This document shows, piece after piece, positions 55,539-63,722 of a stretch of DNA of 64,000 nucleotides (within the stretch, counting starts at the first letter, position 1; each line of letters opens with the position of its first letter). The translations under genes were made by a program, and so were the position numbers. The notes below the pieces were generated by a model. That model saw only the letters and a program-made list of their open reading frames with translations. It ran no database searches and was not told where the DNA came from. The DNA is from Halobaculum halobium (lineage in GTDB: Archaea > Halobacteriota > Halobacteria > Halobacteriales > Haloferacaceae): the NCBI RefSeq assembly GCF_030127145.1, contig NZ_CP126158.1, positions 1,116,001-1,180,000 of the forward strand, read 5' to 3'.

Positions 55539-56231
55539 CTACCGTTCCTGTGCGTCCTCGACGCCCGCGTCCGTGATCTCGAAGCGCGCGGACTCTCCGG
55601 CCGGCTGCGAGCGGTGTTTCTCCAGGGTTGCCCGCCGGTTGCCGCCGCGAAAGCGCTCCAGTCGGAGAATCACGCCCGTCCAGTGTTCCAAGGTATTTCC
55701 TCCCAGCGGGCGGTCGCGGTCGGCGTCGGGGTCGGTGAACACCTGGTTCGTCACGAGCACCGCGAGGTCGTGCTTGCGCGCCAGCGACAGCAGGTGGGTC
55801 ACGTGGCGCGCGACCTCGCGTACCGACTCCCCGCCGCGGGAGTCTTCCGTGCGCTCCAGCCGGTAGAACCCGGTCGCGGAGTCGAGCACGATCAGGTCGA
55901 CGCCGTCGGCGAGGTCGGCGGCGTCCTTCACTGCCTCCCCCTGCTCCTCGAAGCTCATGGCCTCGCTCACGACGAGGCGACCGGCGACCCGCTCGACCGG
56001 TTCCTCCGAGCGCGCCTCGGCGATGTCGCGAAACCGGGTCATCGAGAGGTCCTCGGTGTCGATGTAGAGGACCGAGCCGCCGTCGGCTGCGACCTCAACC
56101 GCCGCCGTCAGCGCGAGGTTCGTCTTTCCCGACGCCGGCGGGCCGTACAGTTGAGTGACGACGCCGCGCTCGATGCCGCCGCCGATCAGATCGTCGACGG
56201 CCGTGCTACCAGTCGTCAGGAACTCGGACAC
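55539..56231 (-). CDS. radB: DNA repair and recombination protein RadB
   Basis: This is the archaeal RecA/Rad51 paralogue, 230 residues from the GTG at 56231 (a TTG at 56258 would add nine). Walker A is YGPPASGKTNLAL, Walker B ends VDLIVLDSATGF, and LAVLVTNQVF is the polar loop region. RadB lacks the N-terminal helix-hairpin-helix domain of RadA and assists RadA-driven recombination. The short start VSEFLTTGSTAVDDLIGGG matches the family opening, which is why I prefer the GTG. It lies downstream of the chemotaxis transducer gene by 139 bases. Confidence 0.92.
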   Translation of the reverse strand: MSEFLTTGSTAVDDLIGGGIERGVVTQLYGPPASGKTNLALTAAVEVAADGGSVLYIDTEDLSMTRFRDIAEARSEEPVERVAGRLVVSEAMSFEEQGEAVKDAADLADGVDLIVLDSATGFYRLERTEDSRGGESVREVARHVTHLLSLARKHDLAVLVTNQVFTDPDADRDRPLGGNTLEHWTGVILRLERFRGGNRRATLEKHRSQPAGESARFEITDAGVEDAQER

Positions 56232-56369
56232 GGTCGGCTCTGGGTCGTCACCGGGCAAAAACCTCCCGAGTGCCGGGCGGGGGTGGACGGCCGCCGCTGG
56301 CGGGTCGGCACCCCGGCGTCGACATCGAGATCGGTCGTCGCGGACGCGACCGTCGATACAGCCAGGCAG

Positions 56370-58799
56370 TCAGTCGTCGCCCGCGGGACCGCCGCCCTCG
56401 GCAACGTACTCGAAGCCGTCGCCGTCGGTCATCGCAATGTCGGCGCCGCCCCCTCCGCTTCCGCCGGTATCGACTTCGCGACCGGTGGGTGCAGCGTCGC
56501 GGTCGGTTCCGGCGGCAACGTCGCCACCGGCACCGCCGGCCTCCGCGTCGGTGGACACGTCGAATCGGGCGACGAGTTCGCGGAGTTCCTCGACCCGCTC
56601 GGAGAGCGTCTCGGCGGATTCGCTGACCTCGGTGACCGCGGCGGTCTGTTCTTGGGCCGACGCGGCGGCGCTGTCGACGTCCGCGCTGGTGCGTTCGCCG
56701 ATCTCGGTCACTTCCTCGGCCATCGTCACGACCTCCTCGGTGGTCGCCGCCTGGTCGTCGGTGGCCGCGTCGATCGACTCGACGCCGTCGTTCGCGTCGT
56801 CGATTCGCTCGCCAACCGTCTCTACGGCCTCGAGCGCGTCCTCGACGACCTCGACGCCGTCCTCGACGACGGTCTCGGTCGCGGCCATGTCGTCGGCCGC
56901 CGCCGTCGACGCCTCCTGGAGCGTCTCGATCCGAGCGGCGATCTCGTCGGTCGCGGCGCTCGTCTCCTCTGCGAGCGTCTTCACTTCGTCGGCGACGACG
57001 GCGAAGCCGTCGCCCTCCTCGCCGGCCCTGGCGGCCTCGATGGACGCGTTGAGCGCCAGGAGGTTCGTCTGCTCGGCGATCCCGTCGATCAGGTCGACGA
57101 CCTCGGTGATCTCGGCCATCTCGTCGGCGACGCGGTCGACCTCGTCTGCGGTTCGGTCGGTGCGGTCCGCGACCGCGGTGAACGCGTCGAGGGCGTCCTC
57201 GGCGGCCTCGCCGGCGGTGTCGGCGCTTTCGGCGGCCTCCGCCGACAGCGTGGAGACGTCCGCGGCGGTCGCGGCGATCTCTTCGACCGTGGCCGAGAGC
57301 CCGCTCATCTCGCCGCTTACCTCGCTCAGTCGCTCGGCCTGCTCGTCGCTGGCTCCGGCGACGTCGGTCATCGCGCGGCTGACCGAGGCGCTTGCGTCCT
57401 CGATCTGGTCGGCGCCGGCGGCGACGGCCGCGGCGCGCTCGTCGGCCTCGTCTGCGAACGCGCGGACGGTGCCGACCGTGTCCTCGAGGTCGTCGACCAT
57501 CCGGTTGAACGAGCGTGCGATCTCCTCGAGGGCCTCGTTGTCGGCGTTCTCGTCGAGCCTGACGGTGAGGTCGCCGGCGGCGGCCCGCTCCATCGCGTCG
57601 CCGTACTCGGTCGCGCGGCCCTCCAGCGAGTCGGCCAGCGCCTCCGCCTCCGCTCTCGCGTCGGCGGCGCGCTCGCGCTCGGTTTGCGCCTGGTCGACCC
57701 GGTCGGACAGGTCGTCGCGCATGTCGCCGAACGAACCGTACAGCGTGCCGATCTCGTCGATCCGGTCCGTCGAGACGGACACGTCGAGGTCGCCCGAACC
57801 GAGCGCCCGAGCGCGATCGCTCAGATCGTCGAGCGCGTCGCCGGTCGGCTTCGCGATCACCACGCCCGCGAACAGGAATCCGGCGAGGGCGGTGGCGACC
57901 AGCAGGAGGATGTTCTGTCGGACGCCGGCGGCGACCGCGTACGCACCGTCGGCCGGGACGTGAACCGCCATCACCCAGGTAGTTCCCGGGACGCGGGCGT
58001 AGGAAACGACGAGGTCGCGGTTCAGCGCGTCTTCGACCGCCGCGTCCTCGGTGACCACGTCGTTGCCGTCGAGCGCGCGTTGGAACATGTCGCCGGTGGC
58101 ACCGAGGTACGACTGGCTGATCGCGTCGGGCTCGTCCGCCATCACCACGATGCCGTTGCGGTCGACGACGCGGACGAACCCGCCCTCGACGGGCGTCGAG
58201 AAGCCCTCACCGATGGCCCCGGTGTCGGCGACGAGCACCACCGCGCGGTGGGGCGCAGAGGGGACCGCGCTGACGAAGCCGATCATCGGGCCGTCGTTGG
58301 TGCGGTACACCGACGACGTGGCCGTCCGGTCTGCGGAGGCGGGGGCCACCGCCGGCGCCCACGCCAGCGACGCCTCCGCGAGCGACGCGTCCTCGAGATC
58401 CGGGTTGCTGGACGCGAGCACGGTCCGCTCGTCGGTGTCGACGTAGTGGATCGCGTGGACGTCGTTCGGAAGCGCCCGGAGTTCTGTGGTGAACACCGGC
58501 CGGAGCTTCGCGGTGTTCCCCTCGCGCACGTCTTGATACTCGGAGATCATCCGCACAGCCGTGCTCCGCTGGCTCAACCACTCGGAGAGCCCGTCGGCCT
58601 CAGACGTCGTCACCGTCGTCAGGTCGCTCCTGACGTTCTCTTGGAGGTCCGCCGTCGTAGAGGAGACCGCGTACGCGCCGACGCCCCCGGTCGCGAGTAT
58701 CAACACGAGCAACACCGTCGCGAACTTGCGGACGATCCCGCGACGTATCACGTCCGGAACCAGCCGGGCACCCGTCGAGGGCCCAGAACTGTCTGTCAT
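56370..58799 (-). CDS. methyl-accepting chemotaxis protein (haloarchaeal transducer)
   Basis: The 809-residue membrane receptor has helix 1 (about 25-46) and an extracellular Cache-type sensor (about 47-288) with [21 protein letters not shown] and [18 protein letters not shown]-like PAS strands. Helix 2 (about 290-312) is followed by a HAMP linker with [10 protein letters not shown] and a cytoplasmic coiled coil carrying a second HAMP-like segment (GDLTVRLDE). The signalling tip reads [20 protein letters not shown] (about 580-600) and the C-terminus is acidic. Ligand unknown. No methylation enzyme genes are nearby. Confidence 0.93.
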
Positions 58800-58971: not shown

Positions 58972-59712
58972 GTGATCGTCGTCGTCACGGAGGACTTCGA
59001 GCTGTATCACGCTGCGGTCGCCGAGTTACGCGAGCGCGGCGCGACGTTCACCACTCGGGAACCCGACGTCGCGCTCCCGGAAGGCACAGAGGCCGTGATC
59101 TCGGCGCCGCACGACGGCCTCAGTTTCCGCGGCGAGCCGGTCCAACACGTCACCACGACGGCCGACGACGTCCGCGACGGCGTCGAGGAGGCGCTCGGCG
59201 GCCTCCGCGGCGGCGACGGGCGGACCGTCGTGGGCGTCGATCCGGGCGAGCAGCCGGGGATCGCGGTGCTCTCGGGCGAGACCGTAGTCGCCGCGTACCA
59301 CGTCTCGCTGGCCGATGCCGTCGACACCGTGCTCGCGGAGATCGAGGACGAGCCGGACGCGCTGGTTCGCGTGGGCGACGGGGACCGCCTCCGGAGCGCG
59401 CGGGTCGTGAACGAACTGGAGGGCGCCTCCGTCGAACTCGTCGACGAGTCGGGGACGACGCCGACGCTCGGCCGCGGCGCCGCCGGGAAGGGGATGGCCG
59501 ACGTGCTCGCAGCCGTCAACATCGCCCGCATGAAGGGAGACCCGGTGGAGACCCGCGACGTCGAACCCACCGCCGGAGAGACCCAGCGCATCAAGAACGA
59601 GTCGCGCGACCGTTCGAACGGCGATCTCACCGTGAGCGAGGATCTGGCCCGCGGGGTCGCCCTCGGGGAGTTGACGTTGGAGGAAGCCATCGCCCGACAG
59701 CGCGACGGCTGA
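58972..59712 (+). CDS. RNase H-fold (YqgF/RuvC-like) protein, putative nuclease
   Basis: The 246-residue protein has a DUF-type N-terminal part (1-80) and a RuvC/YqgF-like core: Asp90 in VVGVDPGEQPGIAVL, GDGDR at 135-139, Glu159 within VDESGTTPTLGRGAAG, and Asp177 in KGMADVLAAVNIARMKG. The order D, (VDE..TT), D matches the YqgF active-site pattern. A C-terminal KNESRDRSNGDLTVSEDLA segment follows. YqgF proteins process rRNA or resolve junctions in bacteria; the archaeal role is unproven. The start is a GTG at 58972. Confidence 0.75.
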   Translation: MIVVVTEDFELYHAAVAELRERGATFTTREPDVALPEGTEAVISAPHDGLSFRGEPVQHVTTTADDVRDGVEEALGGLRGGDGRTVVGVDPGEQPGIAVLSGETVVAAYHVSLADAVDTVLAEIEDEPDALVRVGDGDRLRSARVVNELEGASVELVDESGTTPTLGRGAAGKGMADVLAAVNIARMKGDPVETRDVEPTAGETQRIKNESRDRSNGDLTVSEDLARGVALGELTLEEAIARQRDG

Positions 59713-59733: not shown

Positions 59734-59901
59734 TCAGCGTCGGCCGACGAACACCGTTTTGACTCGCGCGCCGCACGTCGGGCAGCACAGCGTCTGCCAC
59801 GCGTCGCTGTCAAGGGCGCCGATCGTCTCAGTTCGCGTCGCCGCCGAGGCGGCGAACTCGGCGCCGCAGTCGTCGCAGGTGTAGCGATCGGCGTCGCTCA
59901 T
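59734..59901 (-). CDS. small zinc-ribbon protein
   Basis: The 55-residue protein has CDDCG (residues 9-13) and CCPTCG (39-44) knuckles with a hydrophobic spacer (EFAASAATRTETIGALDS). The ATG at 59901 follows the larC stop by 13 bases, so it is probably co-transcribed with larC. Function is unknown; the family of tiny haloarchaeal zinc ribbons is large and mostly uncharacterised. Confidence 0.75.
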   Translation of the reverse strand: MSDADRYTCDDCGAEFAASAATRTETIGALDSDAWQTLCCPTCGARVKTVFVGRR

Positions 59902-59914
59902 CGCGCGTTCGCTC

Positions 59915-61243
59915 TCATCGGTCGGCGGCGCCCCGCTCCTGCCGCTGGCGGACGACCGCCTCCGCGCGGCGAAGCACCTCTCGGACCGGGACGCCGGCCT
60001 CGCGGGCGGCGGCCGCGGCGTTGTCATACTCGGCGCTCACATCGTACACGTCCCCGTCGGTGTCGCTGGCGATTTTGACCGGGATCTCGTAGGCTGCGTC
60101 GCCCTCGCCGAGCGCGATTTCGGCCGTCTCGAAGCGACGATCGGCGATCCAGCGGTGGCTCGCGCCGCCCTCACGGATCCCGAGCGTTCCGGTCTCCTCG
60201 GCGAGCCGCCGGGCGACGCGGTCGGCGTCCTCGGGCGCACAGATCACCTTCACGAGGTGGCCCGGGCGCGACTTCTTCATCGTCGCTGGGAGGATCGACA
60301 CGTCGCGGGCGCCCGCGTCGGCGAGCGTCTCCTGCAGGCCGCCGAGCACCTCCGGTGCGGCGTCGTCGAGGTTCGTCTCCAACACGGCCACGTCGTCGCG
60401 GGCGAGCCCCGACCGCCCGGCCTCGCCGACGACCGCTCGGAGGACGTTCGGGCGGTCGGGGAACGTCCACCCGCCGGCGCCGTAGCCCGACTCCTCGACG
60501 CGGATCGAGGGGAGTCGCTCGACGCCCTCGGCGCGGTGCGCGAGGATCGCCGCGCCCGTCGGCGTGAGCAACTCGGCGTCGACGGGACCGCCGCGAAGCG
60601 ACCAGTCGGCGCGCTCGGCGATCTCGACGACCGCGGGCACCGGAACCGGGTAGACACCGTGGCTGAAATCGACCTCGCCGTCGCCGGTCGCGAGCGGCGT
60701 CGTCACCACGCGGTCGGGATCGAGATCGTCGAACAGCAGGCACGCGCCGACCACGTCGGCGATCGCGTCGTCGGCGCCGACCTCGTGAAAGTGCGTTCCC
60801 TCGAGGTCCGTGCCGTGAACCGACGACTCCGCCTCCCCGAGGAGTTCGAACGTCGCGAGCGCGTCCGCCCGGACCGGTTCCGGGAGGTCCATCTCCTCGA
60901 CGACCTCGACGACCTCGGCGTACGTTCGCTGGGGACCGTGCCCCTCGGCGTTGTGGTCGTGGTCGTGGCTGTGGTCGTGGTCGTGACTATGATCGTGATG
61001 ATTGTGGCCGTCGTGGTGGTCGTGACCTCCGTCGTGTTCAGACCCGTCGTCGCTGCCGACATGTCGCACCCGGGCGCGGGTGCTCGCGATGCCGTTCCGC
61101 TCGGTCGCTTCGAACTCGTAGCGGACCGGAAGCGCGTCTTCCACGGGTGTGAGCACCTTGGAGTCGCCGCCGGCGGCGACGAGCGCGCCGAGGATCATGT
61201 CGCCGGCGGCGCCCATCCGGCCGTCAAAGGCGAGCGTTCGCAT
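59915..61243 (-). CDS. larC: nickel-pincer cofactor biosynthesis protein LarC with histidine-rich insert
   Basis: LarC inserts nickel into the pincer pyridinium cofactor of lactate racemase LarA, using CTP. It has 442 residues. The signatures are MRTLAFDGRMGAAGDMILGAL, EGTHFHEVGADDAIADVVGA, VPVPAVVEIAE, the PTGAAILAH segment and MKKSRPGHLVKVI. A surface insert at residues 70-102 has about 15 His in Asp/His repeats (DHSHDHDHSHDHDH), far beyond the few His of typical members, probably a nickel store. larA, larB and larE are absent from the window. ATG at 61243. Confidence 0.92.
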   Translation of the reverse strand: MRTLAFDGRMGAAGDMILGALVAAGGDSKVLTPVEDALPVRYEFEATERNGIASTRARVRHVGSDDGSEHDGGHDHHDGHNHHDHSHDHDHSHDHDHNAEGHGPQRTYAEVVEVVEEMDLPEPVRADALATFELLGEAESSVHGTDLEGTHFHEVGADDAIADVVGACLLFDDLDPDRVVTTPLATGDGEVDFSHGVYPVPVPAVVEIAERADWSLRGGPVDAELLTPTGAAILAHRAEGVERLPSIRVEESGYGAGGWTFPDRPNVLRAVVGEAGRSGLARDDVAVLETNLDDAAPEVLGGLQETLADAGARDVSILPATMKKSRPGHLVKVICAPEDADRVARRLAEETGTLGIREGGASHRWIADRRFETAEIALGEGDAAYEIPVKIASDTDGDVYDVSAEYDNAAAAAREAGVPVREVLRRAEAVVRQRQERGAADR

Positions 61244-61496
61244 GGTCGGTCGAACGCCCCGGGCCGTGAAGTCGCTACCGCCACGGCGGCGCGACCGCGG
61301 GGCCGGGCTCGCTCGTGACGCCGTCGCCGTCGGCGGTGGTGTTTTCAGTGCGGGCCCCGTATCGTGCGAGTGATTAGCACATCATGCGTCCCCGCCGTCG
61401 GCCCTGGATTCCGACGTCCCAGTGCCATGGCGCGCAACGGAGGGCTTAACAGCCGTCCCAACGGACGTATTGCGAACGAACACCAGTCAATCCATC

Positions 61497-63722
61497 ATGA
61501 ATGAAGTCCAACTCGAAGTCGCGAAGGCGTACCCGAACGACTCCGGCCGAGGGATCGCCCGCCTCGACCCGGACACCCTCCTACACCTGAAGCTCTCTCC
61601 GGGCGACATCATCGAGATCGAGGGAGCCGAGACCACCGCCGCGAAAGTGTGGCGCGCCGACCGACAGGACTGGAACACCGACACGGTCCGTATCGACGGG
61701 TTCACGCGCCAGAACGCCGACGTGGGAATCGGCGAGCGCGTCACGATCCGGAAGGCCGAGGCGAAGAAGGCCGAGTCGCTGACGCTCGCGCCGCCCGAGG
61801 AGGCGTCGGTGCAGTTCGGCTCCGACGCCGCGGGCATGGTGAAACGGCAGATCCTCAAGCGCCCGGTCGTCGAGCGCGACATCGTCCCCGTGATGTCCTC
61901 CACGAACCACCCGTTCATGCGCTCTCCGGGACAGGCGATTCCGCTGATCGCCGTCGACACCGAACCCGACGGCGTCTGTCTGATCACCGAAGACACCGAT
62001 GTCGAACTGCGCGAGGAGCCGATCTCCGGGTTCGAGAAGACCGGCGGCGGCATCACCTACGAGGACATCGGCGGCCTCCAACAGGAGATTCAGCGCGTCC
62101 GCGAGATGGTCGAGCTGCCGATGAAACACCCCCAGATCTTCAAGAAGCTGGGGATCGAGCCGCCACAGGGCGTCCTCTTGCACGGCCCGCCGGGCACCGG
62201 CAAGACGCTGCTGGCGAAGGCGGTCGCCAACGAGACCTCCGCGAGCTTCTTCTCCATCGCGGGGCCCGAGATCATCTCGAAGTACTACGGCGAGTCCGAG
62301 CAGCAGCTCCGGGAGATCTTCGAGGACGCGAAAGACGAGAGCCCGAGCATCATCTTCATCGACGAGTTGGACTCCATCGCGCCCAAACGCGAGGACGTGA
62401 CCGGCGAGGTGGAGCGCCGCGTCGTCGCCCAGCTGTTGACGATGATGGACGGGCTGGAGACCCGCGGGCAGGTGATCGTCATCGCGGCGACGAACCGCGT
62501 CGACTCCGTCGACCCCGCGCTCCGGCGCCCGGGTCGCTTCGACCGCGAGATCGAGATCGGCGTCCCCGACGAGGTCGGCCGCAAGGAGATCCTCCAGATC
62601 CACACCCGCGGCATGCCGCTGTCGGACGACGTGGGGCTGGACCGCCTGGCCGACGAGACGCACGGCTTCGTCGGCGCCGACATCGAGAGTCTCACGAAGG
62701 AGGCGGCGATGAAGGCGCTGCGGCGCTACCTCCCGGAGATCGACCTCGACGAGGAGGACATCCCGCCGAGCCTCATCGACCGGATGATCGTCAAGCGCGA
62801 CGACTTCCACGGCGCGCTGGCGGACGTGGAGCCGTCGGCGATGCGCGAGGTGCTCGTCGAGCTCCCGAAGGTCACCTGGGAGGACGTCGGCGGCCTCGAA
62901 GAGGCCCAACAGCAGGTTGAGGAGGCCGTCGAGTGGCCCCTCACCAGCCCGGAGAAGTTCGAGCGGATGGGCATCGAGGCGCCGAAGGGCGTTCTGCTGT
63001 ACGGCCCGCCCGGCACCGGCAAGACGCTGATGGCGAAAGCGGTCGCCAACGAGACCAACGCCAACTTCATTTCGGTTCGCGGACCGCAGCTGCTGTCGAA
63101 GTGGGTCGGCGAGTCCGAGAAGGCGATCCGCCAGACGTTCAGGAAGGCCCGGCAGGTCGCCCCCACCGTGATCTTCTTCGACGAGCTCGACAGCCTCGCG
63201 CCCAGCCGCGGCCAGGAGATGGGGAACAACGTCTCCGAGCGGGTCGTCAACCAACTTCTCACCGAACTCGACGGGCTGGAGGAGATGGGCAACGTGATGG
63301 TGATCGGCGCGACGAACCGCCCGGACATGATCGACCCGGCGCTGATCCGCTCGGGTCGGTTCGACCGGCTCGTCATGATCGGCCAGCCCGACGAGGAGGG
63401 TCGCGAGCAGATCCTCAAGATACACACCGACGACACGCCGCTGAGCGCCGACGTGAGCCTGCGCGAGCTCGCCGAGCGCACCGACGGCTACGTCGGGTCC
63501 GACTTGGAGTCGATCGCCCGCGAGGCCGCGATCCAAGCGCTTCGCGAGGACGACGACGCCGAGGACGTGAACATGCGCCACTTCGATCAGGCGATGGAGG
63601 CGGTGCGACCGACTATCTCCGAGGAGATCATGAGCTACTACGCCGACATCGAAGAGCAGTTCAAAGGCGGCGGCACAGACAGCCTCCGCACCGACCGCGG
63701 CGGGCGGATCGGCTTCCAGTGA
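61497..63722 (+). CDS. CDC48/p97-type AAA ATPase
   Basis: This hexameric unfoldase has 741 residues: an N domain (1-180, double-psi barrel [21 protein letters not shown]), then two AAA modules. D1 has Walker A GPPGTGKT (230-237) with [15 protein letters not shown]2 has GPPGTGKT (503-510) with [14 protein letters not shown], plus arginine fingers in RRPGRFDR and IRSGRFDR. The pore loops are [12 protein letters not shown] and [12 protein letters not shown]. The C-terminus is short and acidic. It extracts proteins for degradation, probably by the proteasome. I chose the ATG at 61497 ([15 protein letters not shown]). Confidence 0.96.

Follow-up and report, generated by a model that had tools for sequence, protein, structure and literature searches.

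An unnamed archaeal RuvC/YqgF-like protein family, often encoded beside radB, and its unusual start codons

The locus and the spread of the gene

The window, a stretch of 64,000 nucleotides of Halobaculum halobium DNA, carries a gene for a RuvC/YqgF-like protein of 246 amino acids (Table 1). The list of open reading frames and the translation both give it as a single open frame on the forward strand with a GTG start, and its position and motifs are those of the preliminary description, which we confirmed. The gene stands between radB and a chemotaxis transducer on one side and larC and a cdc48-type gene on the other; the radB identification is well above threshold (384.8 bits, cut-off 278). 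An ORF of 97 amino acids (59734-60027, reverse strand) closely follows the gene; it has two CxxC pairs and a zinc-ribbon-like appearance, and it matches nothing in Pfam or NCBIfam.

Table 1. Genes, domains and residues at the locus (positions in the window)
Feature	Position	Strand	Remarks	Basis
radB, recombination mediator	55539..56258	-	divergent upstream neighbor in most relatives	tblastn, profile check
Methyl-accepting chemotaxis transducer	56370..58799	-	between radB and the gene in the window genome	
RuvC/YqgF-like protein gene	58972..59712	+	246 codons + stop, GTG start, conserved	
GTG start codon	58972..58974	+	GTG in 127/129 distinct haloarchaeal contexts	context comparison
N-terminal alpha/beta domain	58972..59211	+	residues 1-80, invariant T6, D8, F9	alignment, model
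RNase H-fold domain	59209..59553	+	residues 80-194	AlphaFold2, structure comparison
D90	59239..59241	+	predicted metal ligand, end of strand 1	conservation, model
E159	59446..59448	+	predicted metal ligand, just past strand 5 (YqgF position)	conservation, model
D177	59500..59502	+	predicted metal ligand, start of helix after strand 5	conservation, model
Helical C-terminal tail	59554..59709	+	residues 195-246, conserved	alignment, model
larC, nickel-pincer cofactor protein	59915..61243	-	downstream, often conserved	tblastn, profile check
cdc48-type AAA ATPase	61422..63722	+	downstream, often conserved	tblastn, profile check

A homologue search found an orthologue in 43 of the 60 genomes sampled as relatives, and the single-protein query gave matches in 62 of 294 genomes sampled over the phylum. 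Profile searches for family members, which covered the window's own phylum, matched 134 of 392 genomes at E≤0.001, a part of them through a DUF460 gene only, and a count of the listed rows gave full-length matches at E<1e-50 in 89 of the 392. The named-collection scan took in the best 80 of 315 candidate relatives, all of them titled as haloarchaea or uncultured relatives. As a rule there is one match per genome in both the relatives and the phylum samples; the two entries in G008, and the two or more in G250 and G078, appear to be one gene broken into pieces. Natronorubrum bangense has a chromosomal copy and another on an 828-kb plasmid (L124 and L128), which match the window protein over equal lengths and with equal identity (55%), the plasmid copy being annotated as a hypothetical protein.

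The gene was found in 4/4 sampled genomes of one class, 7/7 of another and 2/80 of a third, and it is absent from all eight sampled genomes of g13, a genus of the same family as the window organism. Since it is missing from many relatives such as g13, it is dispensable. Nor is it confined to halophiles, as had been proposed: we found it at 25 distinct non-halophile loci, some of them presumably in distant methane-cycling archaea. A literature search, with most subscription journals outside it, returned no paper that we recognized as describing a RuvC/YqgF-like family of this kind. The family is real, widespread and unnamed.

Domain organization and predicted fold

The AlphaFold2 model, run with 53 haloarchaeal sequences, has a mean pLDDT of 85.6 and a pTM of 0.51, a value that leaves the relative placing of the domains uncertain. 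In the model, residues 1-78 form a separate domain (strand-helix-strand-strand-strand-helix) and the RNase H part starts at the strand 85-90, which bears out the earlier view that the first 80 or so residues lie outside the nuclease-like fold. That this N-terminal domain is new holds only in part: an extra domain exists, but it resembles ordinary small alpha/beta domains and no specific relative was found. Foldseek with the N-domain alone gave no match under E 0.001, and PurE (Z 9.1), PTS IIB and receiver domains were set aside as generic alpha/beta matches; when the N-domain was modelled alone, from the single sequence, four of five models fell under pLDDT 50. The helical tail, whose conservation had gone unmentioned in the preliminary description, has six invariant residues among 33 members (P199, E203, R212, A226, A230 and A239). 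A resemblance of the tail to VbhA or to DUF1707/SHOCT-like proteins was faint and below the cut-off, and we rejected it.

The RNase H fold, which was sought by structure prediction, was found between these two parts with the order beta1-3, alpha, beta4, alpha, beta5, alpha and an Asp on strand 1. Foldseek with the full model retrieved Tex (E 1.1e-6 and 8.0e-6) and nothing else under E 0.001. In the VIA-align comparison, with matches over model residues 80-194, the best rows were Tex 3bzk (Z 11.3, rmsd 4.1, 107 aligned) and Deinococcus radiodurans YqgF 7w89 (Z 11.3, rmsd 2.8, 101 aligned), with the ISCro4 recombinase (Z 10.9), the IS621 recombinase and Spt6 (both Z 10.7), Mycobacterium tuberculosis RuvX 7ess (Z 10.6, rmsd 3.5, 109 aligned), Thermus thermophilus RuvC 6s16 (Z 10.1, rmsd 3.0, 103 aligned) and Escherichia coli YqgF 1nmn (Z 8.9, rmsd 3.1, 97 aligned) also found. 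Rows within 1 Z of one another count as tied, and therefore the branch of the fold is clear while the nearest family is not. Judging from the model, it is nearly certain that the domain has an RNase H fold of the RuvC/YqgF branch.

Conserved residues and the active-site plan

The three motifs noted from the start, GVDPGEQPGIAVL with D90, VDESGTT with E159 and GMADVLAAVNIA with D177, are all present in the window protein. In an alignment of 33 diverse members, in which the other 32 sequences are 33-77% identical to the window protein, D90, E159 and D177 are within 31 invariant columns, and they are invariant also in 53 haloarchaeal sequences. Further invariant residues among the 33 members are G88, P91, G92, R133, G135, G137, R139, E155, V157, T162, P164, A180, A181, N183, I184 and A185. 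Many spurious ORFs arise in high-GC DNA, and the ORF or its motifs might have been a chance product of this kind; the motifs are nevertheless kept by orthologues at 33-45% identity, including those of the 25 non-halophile loci, and because the three acids do not vary in either the 33 or the 53 sequences we give this explanation practically no weight.

In the model D90 ends the strand 85-90, E159 follows the strand 153-157 and D177 is in the helix 175-186. According to the published description of these nucleases, the Glu of RuvC is at the end of strand 4 and that of YqgF at the end of strand 5, and the last helix of YqgF carries a single putative catalytic residue (PMC9601230). When the 33-member alignment was read together with the model, the end of strand 4, where RuvC has its Glu, showed no conserved acid, and D177 is the sole conserved acid in the helix 175-186, in place of the two acids (or Asp and His) that RuvC has on helix 3. 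The location of E159 after strand 5, and not at the end of strand 4, indicates the YqgF plan and not that of RuvC. The YqgF-type order of acids that had been proposed is upheld, the first being on strand 1, the second where strand 5 ends and a single one on helix 3. At position 136, near strand 4, an Asp is invariant in haloarchaea and is replaced by His, Ser or Arg in non-halophiles.

By the end points of the VIA-align match to 7w89 (model 82-188, chain 14-133), D90 would fall on D22 and D177 on D122, provided that the ends are ungapped, and the three acids of the modelled protein may accordingly lie close in space. The RNase activity of the D. radiodurans enzyme (DrYqgF) is reported to be impaired by D22A and blocked by E106A and D122A (PMC9601230).

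Relationship to known families

The preliminary description had likened the protein to YqgF and RuvC. Membership of YqgF/RuvX is not borne out by profile: the RuvX Pfam model (PF03652) did not match the window protein in a scan at E up to 10. The same model found no gene over its cut-off in any of 100 sampled genomes of the phylum, and the gene of our family was not among the matches listed. The accompanying statement that archaea generally lack YqgF and use Hjc agrees with this count and with the presence of a gene for Hjc elsewhere in the same genome. Archaeal Hjc has a fold unrelated to the RNase H-type core; a shared role of the two separately encoded proteins on branched DNA is possible.

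The window protein is YqgF-like by plan and fold, yet its sequence does not place it in RuvX. It shares with YqgF/RuvX the RNase H fold and the placing of the three acids, but it has 246 amino acids with an added N-domain and C-tail, whereas E. coli YqgF has 138 and consists of a single domain of ~140 residues, and where our family has VDESGTTP E. coli YqgF has HDERLST. The comparison of the family profile with the single sequences of E. coli YqgF and Tex was not significant (probabilities of 0.35% and 0.76%, respectively); the E. coli YqgF alignment nonetheless covers the VDE/HDE motif. We rejected the Tex alignment, since it covers residues 20-39 of Tex and the fold match covers 326-454 (3bzk).

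With the YqgF domain of Tex and Spt6 (PF16921) the protein has in common the best Foldseek match and the top VIA-align row. At the sequence level one of 33 members matched PF16921, at 0.013, and the window protein was unmatched at E up to 10; Tex is moreover a multidomain protein of ~730 residues. The place of Tex and Spt6 among the closest folds raises the alternative that the RNase H core of our family does not cut and is a nucleic-acid-binding or scaffolding module like theirs. In a 2014 survey Tex is described as keeping the moved carboxylate without the third acid, and activity of Tex and YqgF was at that time given as unproven (PMC3985635), which would fit an inactive module. However, all three acids of our family are invariant across deep branches, unlike those of Tex, and DrYqgF is active with the same plan (PMC9601230), so that we consider an inactive module improbable.

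Since it goes unrecognized by the RuvX model, we treat the family as separate, with a weak link to the archaeal DUF460. The DUF460 model (PF04312) reached the window protein with E 0.034 and 14.3 bits, under its cut-off of 28 and only around the first motif; its Pfam matches to the family are weak (29 of 33 members, the best at 2e-4), and a profile-profile comparison gave E 5.9e-5 with a probability of 65%. DUF460/COG2433 proteins, unlike the 246-aa window protein, have several regions and mostly some 610-700 residues; their RNase H domain is preceded by a long stretch and followed by another that is long and charged. DUF460/COG2433 has itself been predicted in print to be RNase H-like (PMC3985635). 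The genome of the window has a separate DUF460/COG2433 gene (L055, G000 C1:1601157-1601552), and FGVDI at the N-terminus of its protein may be a further start motif of the RNase H type.

With RuvC the family shares the fold, as the 6s16 comparison shows; it lacks the conserved strand 4 acid and has one acid, not two, on the last helix. PHROG 1770, annotated as a Holliday junction resolvase, matched 23 of 33 members (best 1.3e-5), the window protein not being among them at E 0.01; the NCBIfam scan returned nothing for that protein. A profile search of PDB sequences gave mostly repeat proteins (DARPins) and other chance matches, which we discarded.

Gene neighborhood

We mapped neighbors by direct tblastn at 101 haloarchaeal and 20 non-halophile loci, which are related to one another and a few of which may share a genome. 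The gene radB was found upstream in 94 of the 101 haloarchaeal loci, 90 times divergent (70 within 400 bp, 10 within 1500 and 10 beyond) and four times on the same strand; the other seven gave no upstream match, and for one of them the flank on that side is just 2 bases long. Of the 20 non-halophile loci, 13 have a divergent radB within 400 bp and five have FEN1 upstream in the same orientation; tblastn found neither gene in two. Downstream, larC was found in 61/101 haloarchaeal and 9/20 non-halophile loci and cdc48 in 62/101 and 9/20, respectively, counts that are limited by flank length. Neighbor identities were checked on selected examples (radB at L057 and L059, FEN1 at L069, larC and CDC48). 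A RadB-type match occurs in 293 of 294 genomes (281 over the cut-off), that is in nearly every genome, and the gene therefore accompanies only a subset of radB genes.

Some loci depart from this arrangement. In family f28 (L068-L071, L074, L222) the gene immediately follows FEN1, in the same orientation, and is not beside radB, and at seven distinct loci of f40 and f44 (L215-L221) we found no radB, FEN1, larC or cdc48 within ~3 kb of flank, less in two of them. Most relatives have radB close to the gene; L097 has an 813-aa ORF between the two, at the position of the transducer of the window.

Beyond radB, 54 of 101 haloarchaeal loci have an upstream CBS-domain gene on the same strand, which matches Hvo_2384 by position; Hvo_2384 binds RadA and RadB in vivo, according to a personal communication cited in PMC3820547. 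In Haloferax volcanii, radB is HVO_2383 (PMC7776575), the LarC family protein is HVO_2381 (PMC8305020) and Cdc48a is apparently HVO_2380 (PMC10470531). As these flank its position, the orthologue, which is open to deletion in this model archaeon, should be HVO_2382, which one paper names among uncharacterized proteins of interest.

Start codons

The start codons of the family are the most surprising observation of this study and are absent from the preliminary description. Of 129 distinct haloarchaeal contexts, 123 have GTG at position 1, one has TTG and one ATG, and in the remaining four GTG is the codon just before position 1. At the same loci the nearest canonical codon ahead of the conserved N-terminus of the neighboring genes is ATG in 38/44 cases for cdc48 and 54/54 for larC, a comparison in which the methods used for the gene and for its neighbors were not identical. 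A Shine-Dalgarno-like 5-mer precedes only eight of the 129 contexts.

At 14 of the 25 distinct non-halophile loci the stretch from the in-frame stop to the TxDF motif lacks ATG, GTG and TTG altogether. A purine-rich hexamer of the GGAGGG type is followed after exactly six bases by AGG at 12 of the 25 (one in f23, two in f25, two in f31, four in f40 and three in f44) and by ATA, ATC or ATT at eight (six in f18, two in f25); at the remaining five, all in f28 (L069, L070, L071, L074, L222), the AGG is nine bases on. These five distinct f28 loci also have an ATG six codons upstream of position 1, which argues against a universal avoidance of ATG. At L056, L062, L215 and L217 a stop codon directly precedes the AGG, and in-frame initiation further upstream is thereby excluded. 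Several of the non-halophile genomes are drafts, and some of their contigs are chromosome-sized. Their neighboring genes have mostly ordinary starts, by a rough choice of start that left two cdc48 cases with none.

AGG makes up 26% of the Arg codons in the non-halophile ORFs, and yet it is the only Arg codon used at this position in all 17 loci concerned (those of f23, f28, f31, f40 and f44 and two of f25). Such uniformity would not be expected from coding alone, although the loci are related and do not amount to 17 independent events. By its fixed spacing, the AGG may possibly be the start codon itself. It is also possible that the true start would be an Ile codon (ATA, ATC or ATT) at position 2, with the AGG serving as a second Shine-Dalgarno sequence, and an AGG-N9-ATH spacing is indeed present in most AGG loci too. 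A programmed frameshift was considered for the missing starts and is not supported, as no upstream ORF in another frame is common to the families. To our knowledge there is no precedent for an AGG start codon.

One reading of this pattern, which we put forward tentatively and hold to be possible but short of probable, is that the family is translated from conserved weak starts: GTG in halophiles, and ATA, ATC, ATT or AGG six bases past a strong Shine-Dalgarno sequence in non-halophiles. The weak start would hold the level of the nuclease low and make it depend on how faithfully the ribosome selects start codons, in the way that infC is linked to IF3; in its boldest form, a processing enzyme would be made mainly when immature or error-prone ribosomes build up. 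A conserved non-canonical start used for control is also what is described for infC (ATT) and the Streptomyces sigR (GTC) (PMC5472188), but these genes are bacterial and IF3-dependent, whereas our family is archaeal, unrelated to them and possibly uses AGG. In a 2021 review, non-canonical translation in archaea is presented as shown only for elongation and termination (PMC8211752).

Possible function

The conserved acids and the modelled fold make nuclease activity likely. As to its role, the reading we favor, at a little under an even chance, is that of a metal-dependent nuclease of the RuvC/YqgF branch that acts on recombination or repair intermediates with RadB; here we infer the catalysis, the metal, the substrate and the partnership alike. 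D90, E159 and D177 would hold one or two divalent metal ions, and the metal site would cleave the phosphodiester backbone, while the N-terminal alpha/beta domain and the helical tail may pick the substrate or a partner. The substrate, by a reasoned guess, would be branched or flapped DNA, such as a junction, fork or flap arising in recombination or repair and handled with RadB. The invariant acids, the fold matches, the PHROG 1770 matches and the repair-gene neighbors all favor a nuclease.

Several observations weigh against parts of this reading. There are only three acids, as in YqgF, whose apo site the authors of 7w89 describe as incomplete and too narrow for metals (PMC9601230). The presence of Hjc in the genome, the dispensability of the gene and the f40 and f44 loci without repair neighbors also count against it, and divergent neighbors share a control region but not necessarily a pathway, larC and cdc48 being kept too. 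DrYqgF, with the same acid plan, is reported to be a Mn-dependent RNase without activity on Holliday junctions; the YqgF proteins of Helicobacter pylori and M. tuberculosis are reported to show resolvase activity (PMC9601230).

The protein could be an RNA-processing nuclease, an archaeal analogue of bacterial YqgF acting on pre-16S rRNA or other RNA. The acid plan is that of YqgF, the E. coli enzyme is reported to mature pre-16S rRNA (PMC9601230), and the avoidance of ATG would fit a translation-linked gene, as in the case of infC and IF3 (PMC5472188). However, the recurrent neighbors are DNA-repair genes, and the patchy presence of the gene would be odd for a step of rRNA maturation. Because DrYqgF cuts RNA and not junctions, we retain RNA processing as a candidate, though an unlikely one, and the non-cutting module keeps the slightly lower standing given to it above.

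If the protein does act on recombination intermediates, it would add a RuvC-type player to the archaea, beside Hjc and Hef, the resolvases listed for them in PMC7776575. As it stands, a probable nuclease next to radB is still called a hypothetical protein in at least one public record. The weak-start reading, if true, would give archaea a conserved example of non-canonical initiation under control, and the start-codon pattern offers a simple test ground for controlled non-AUG initiation in archaea.
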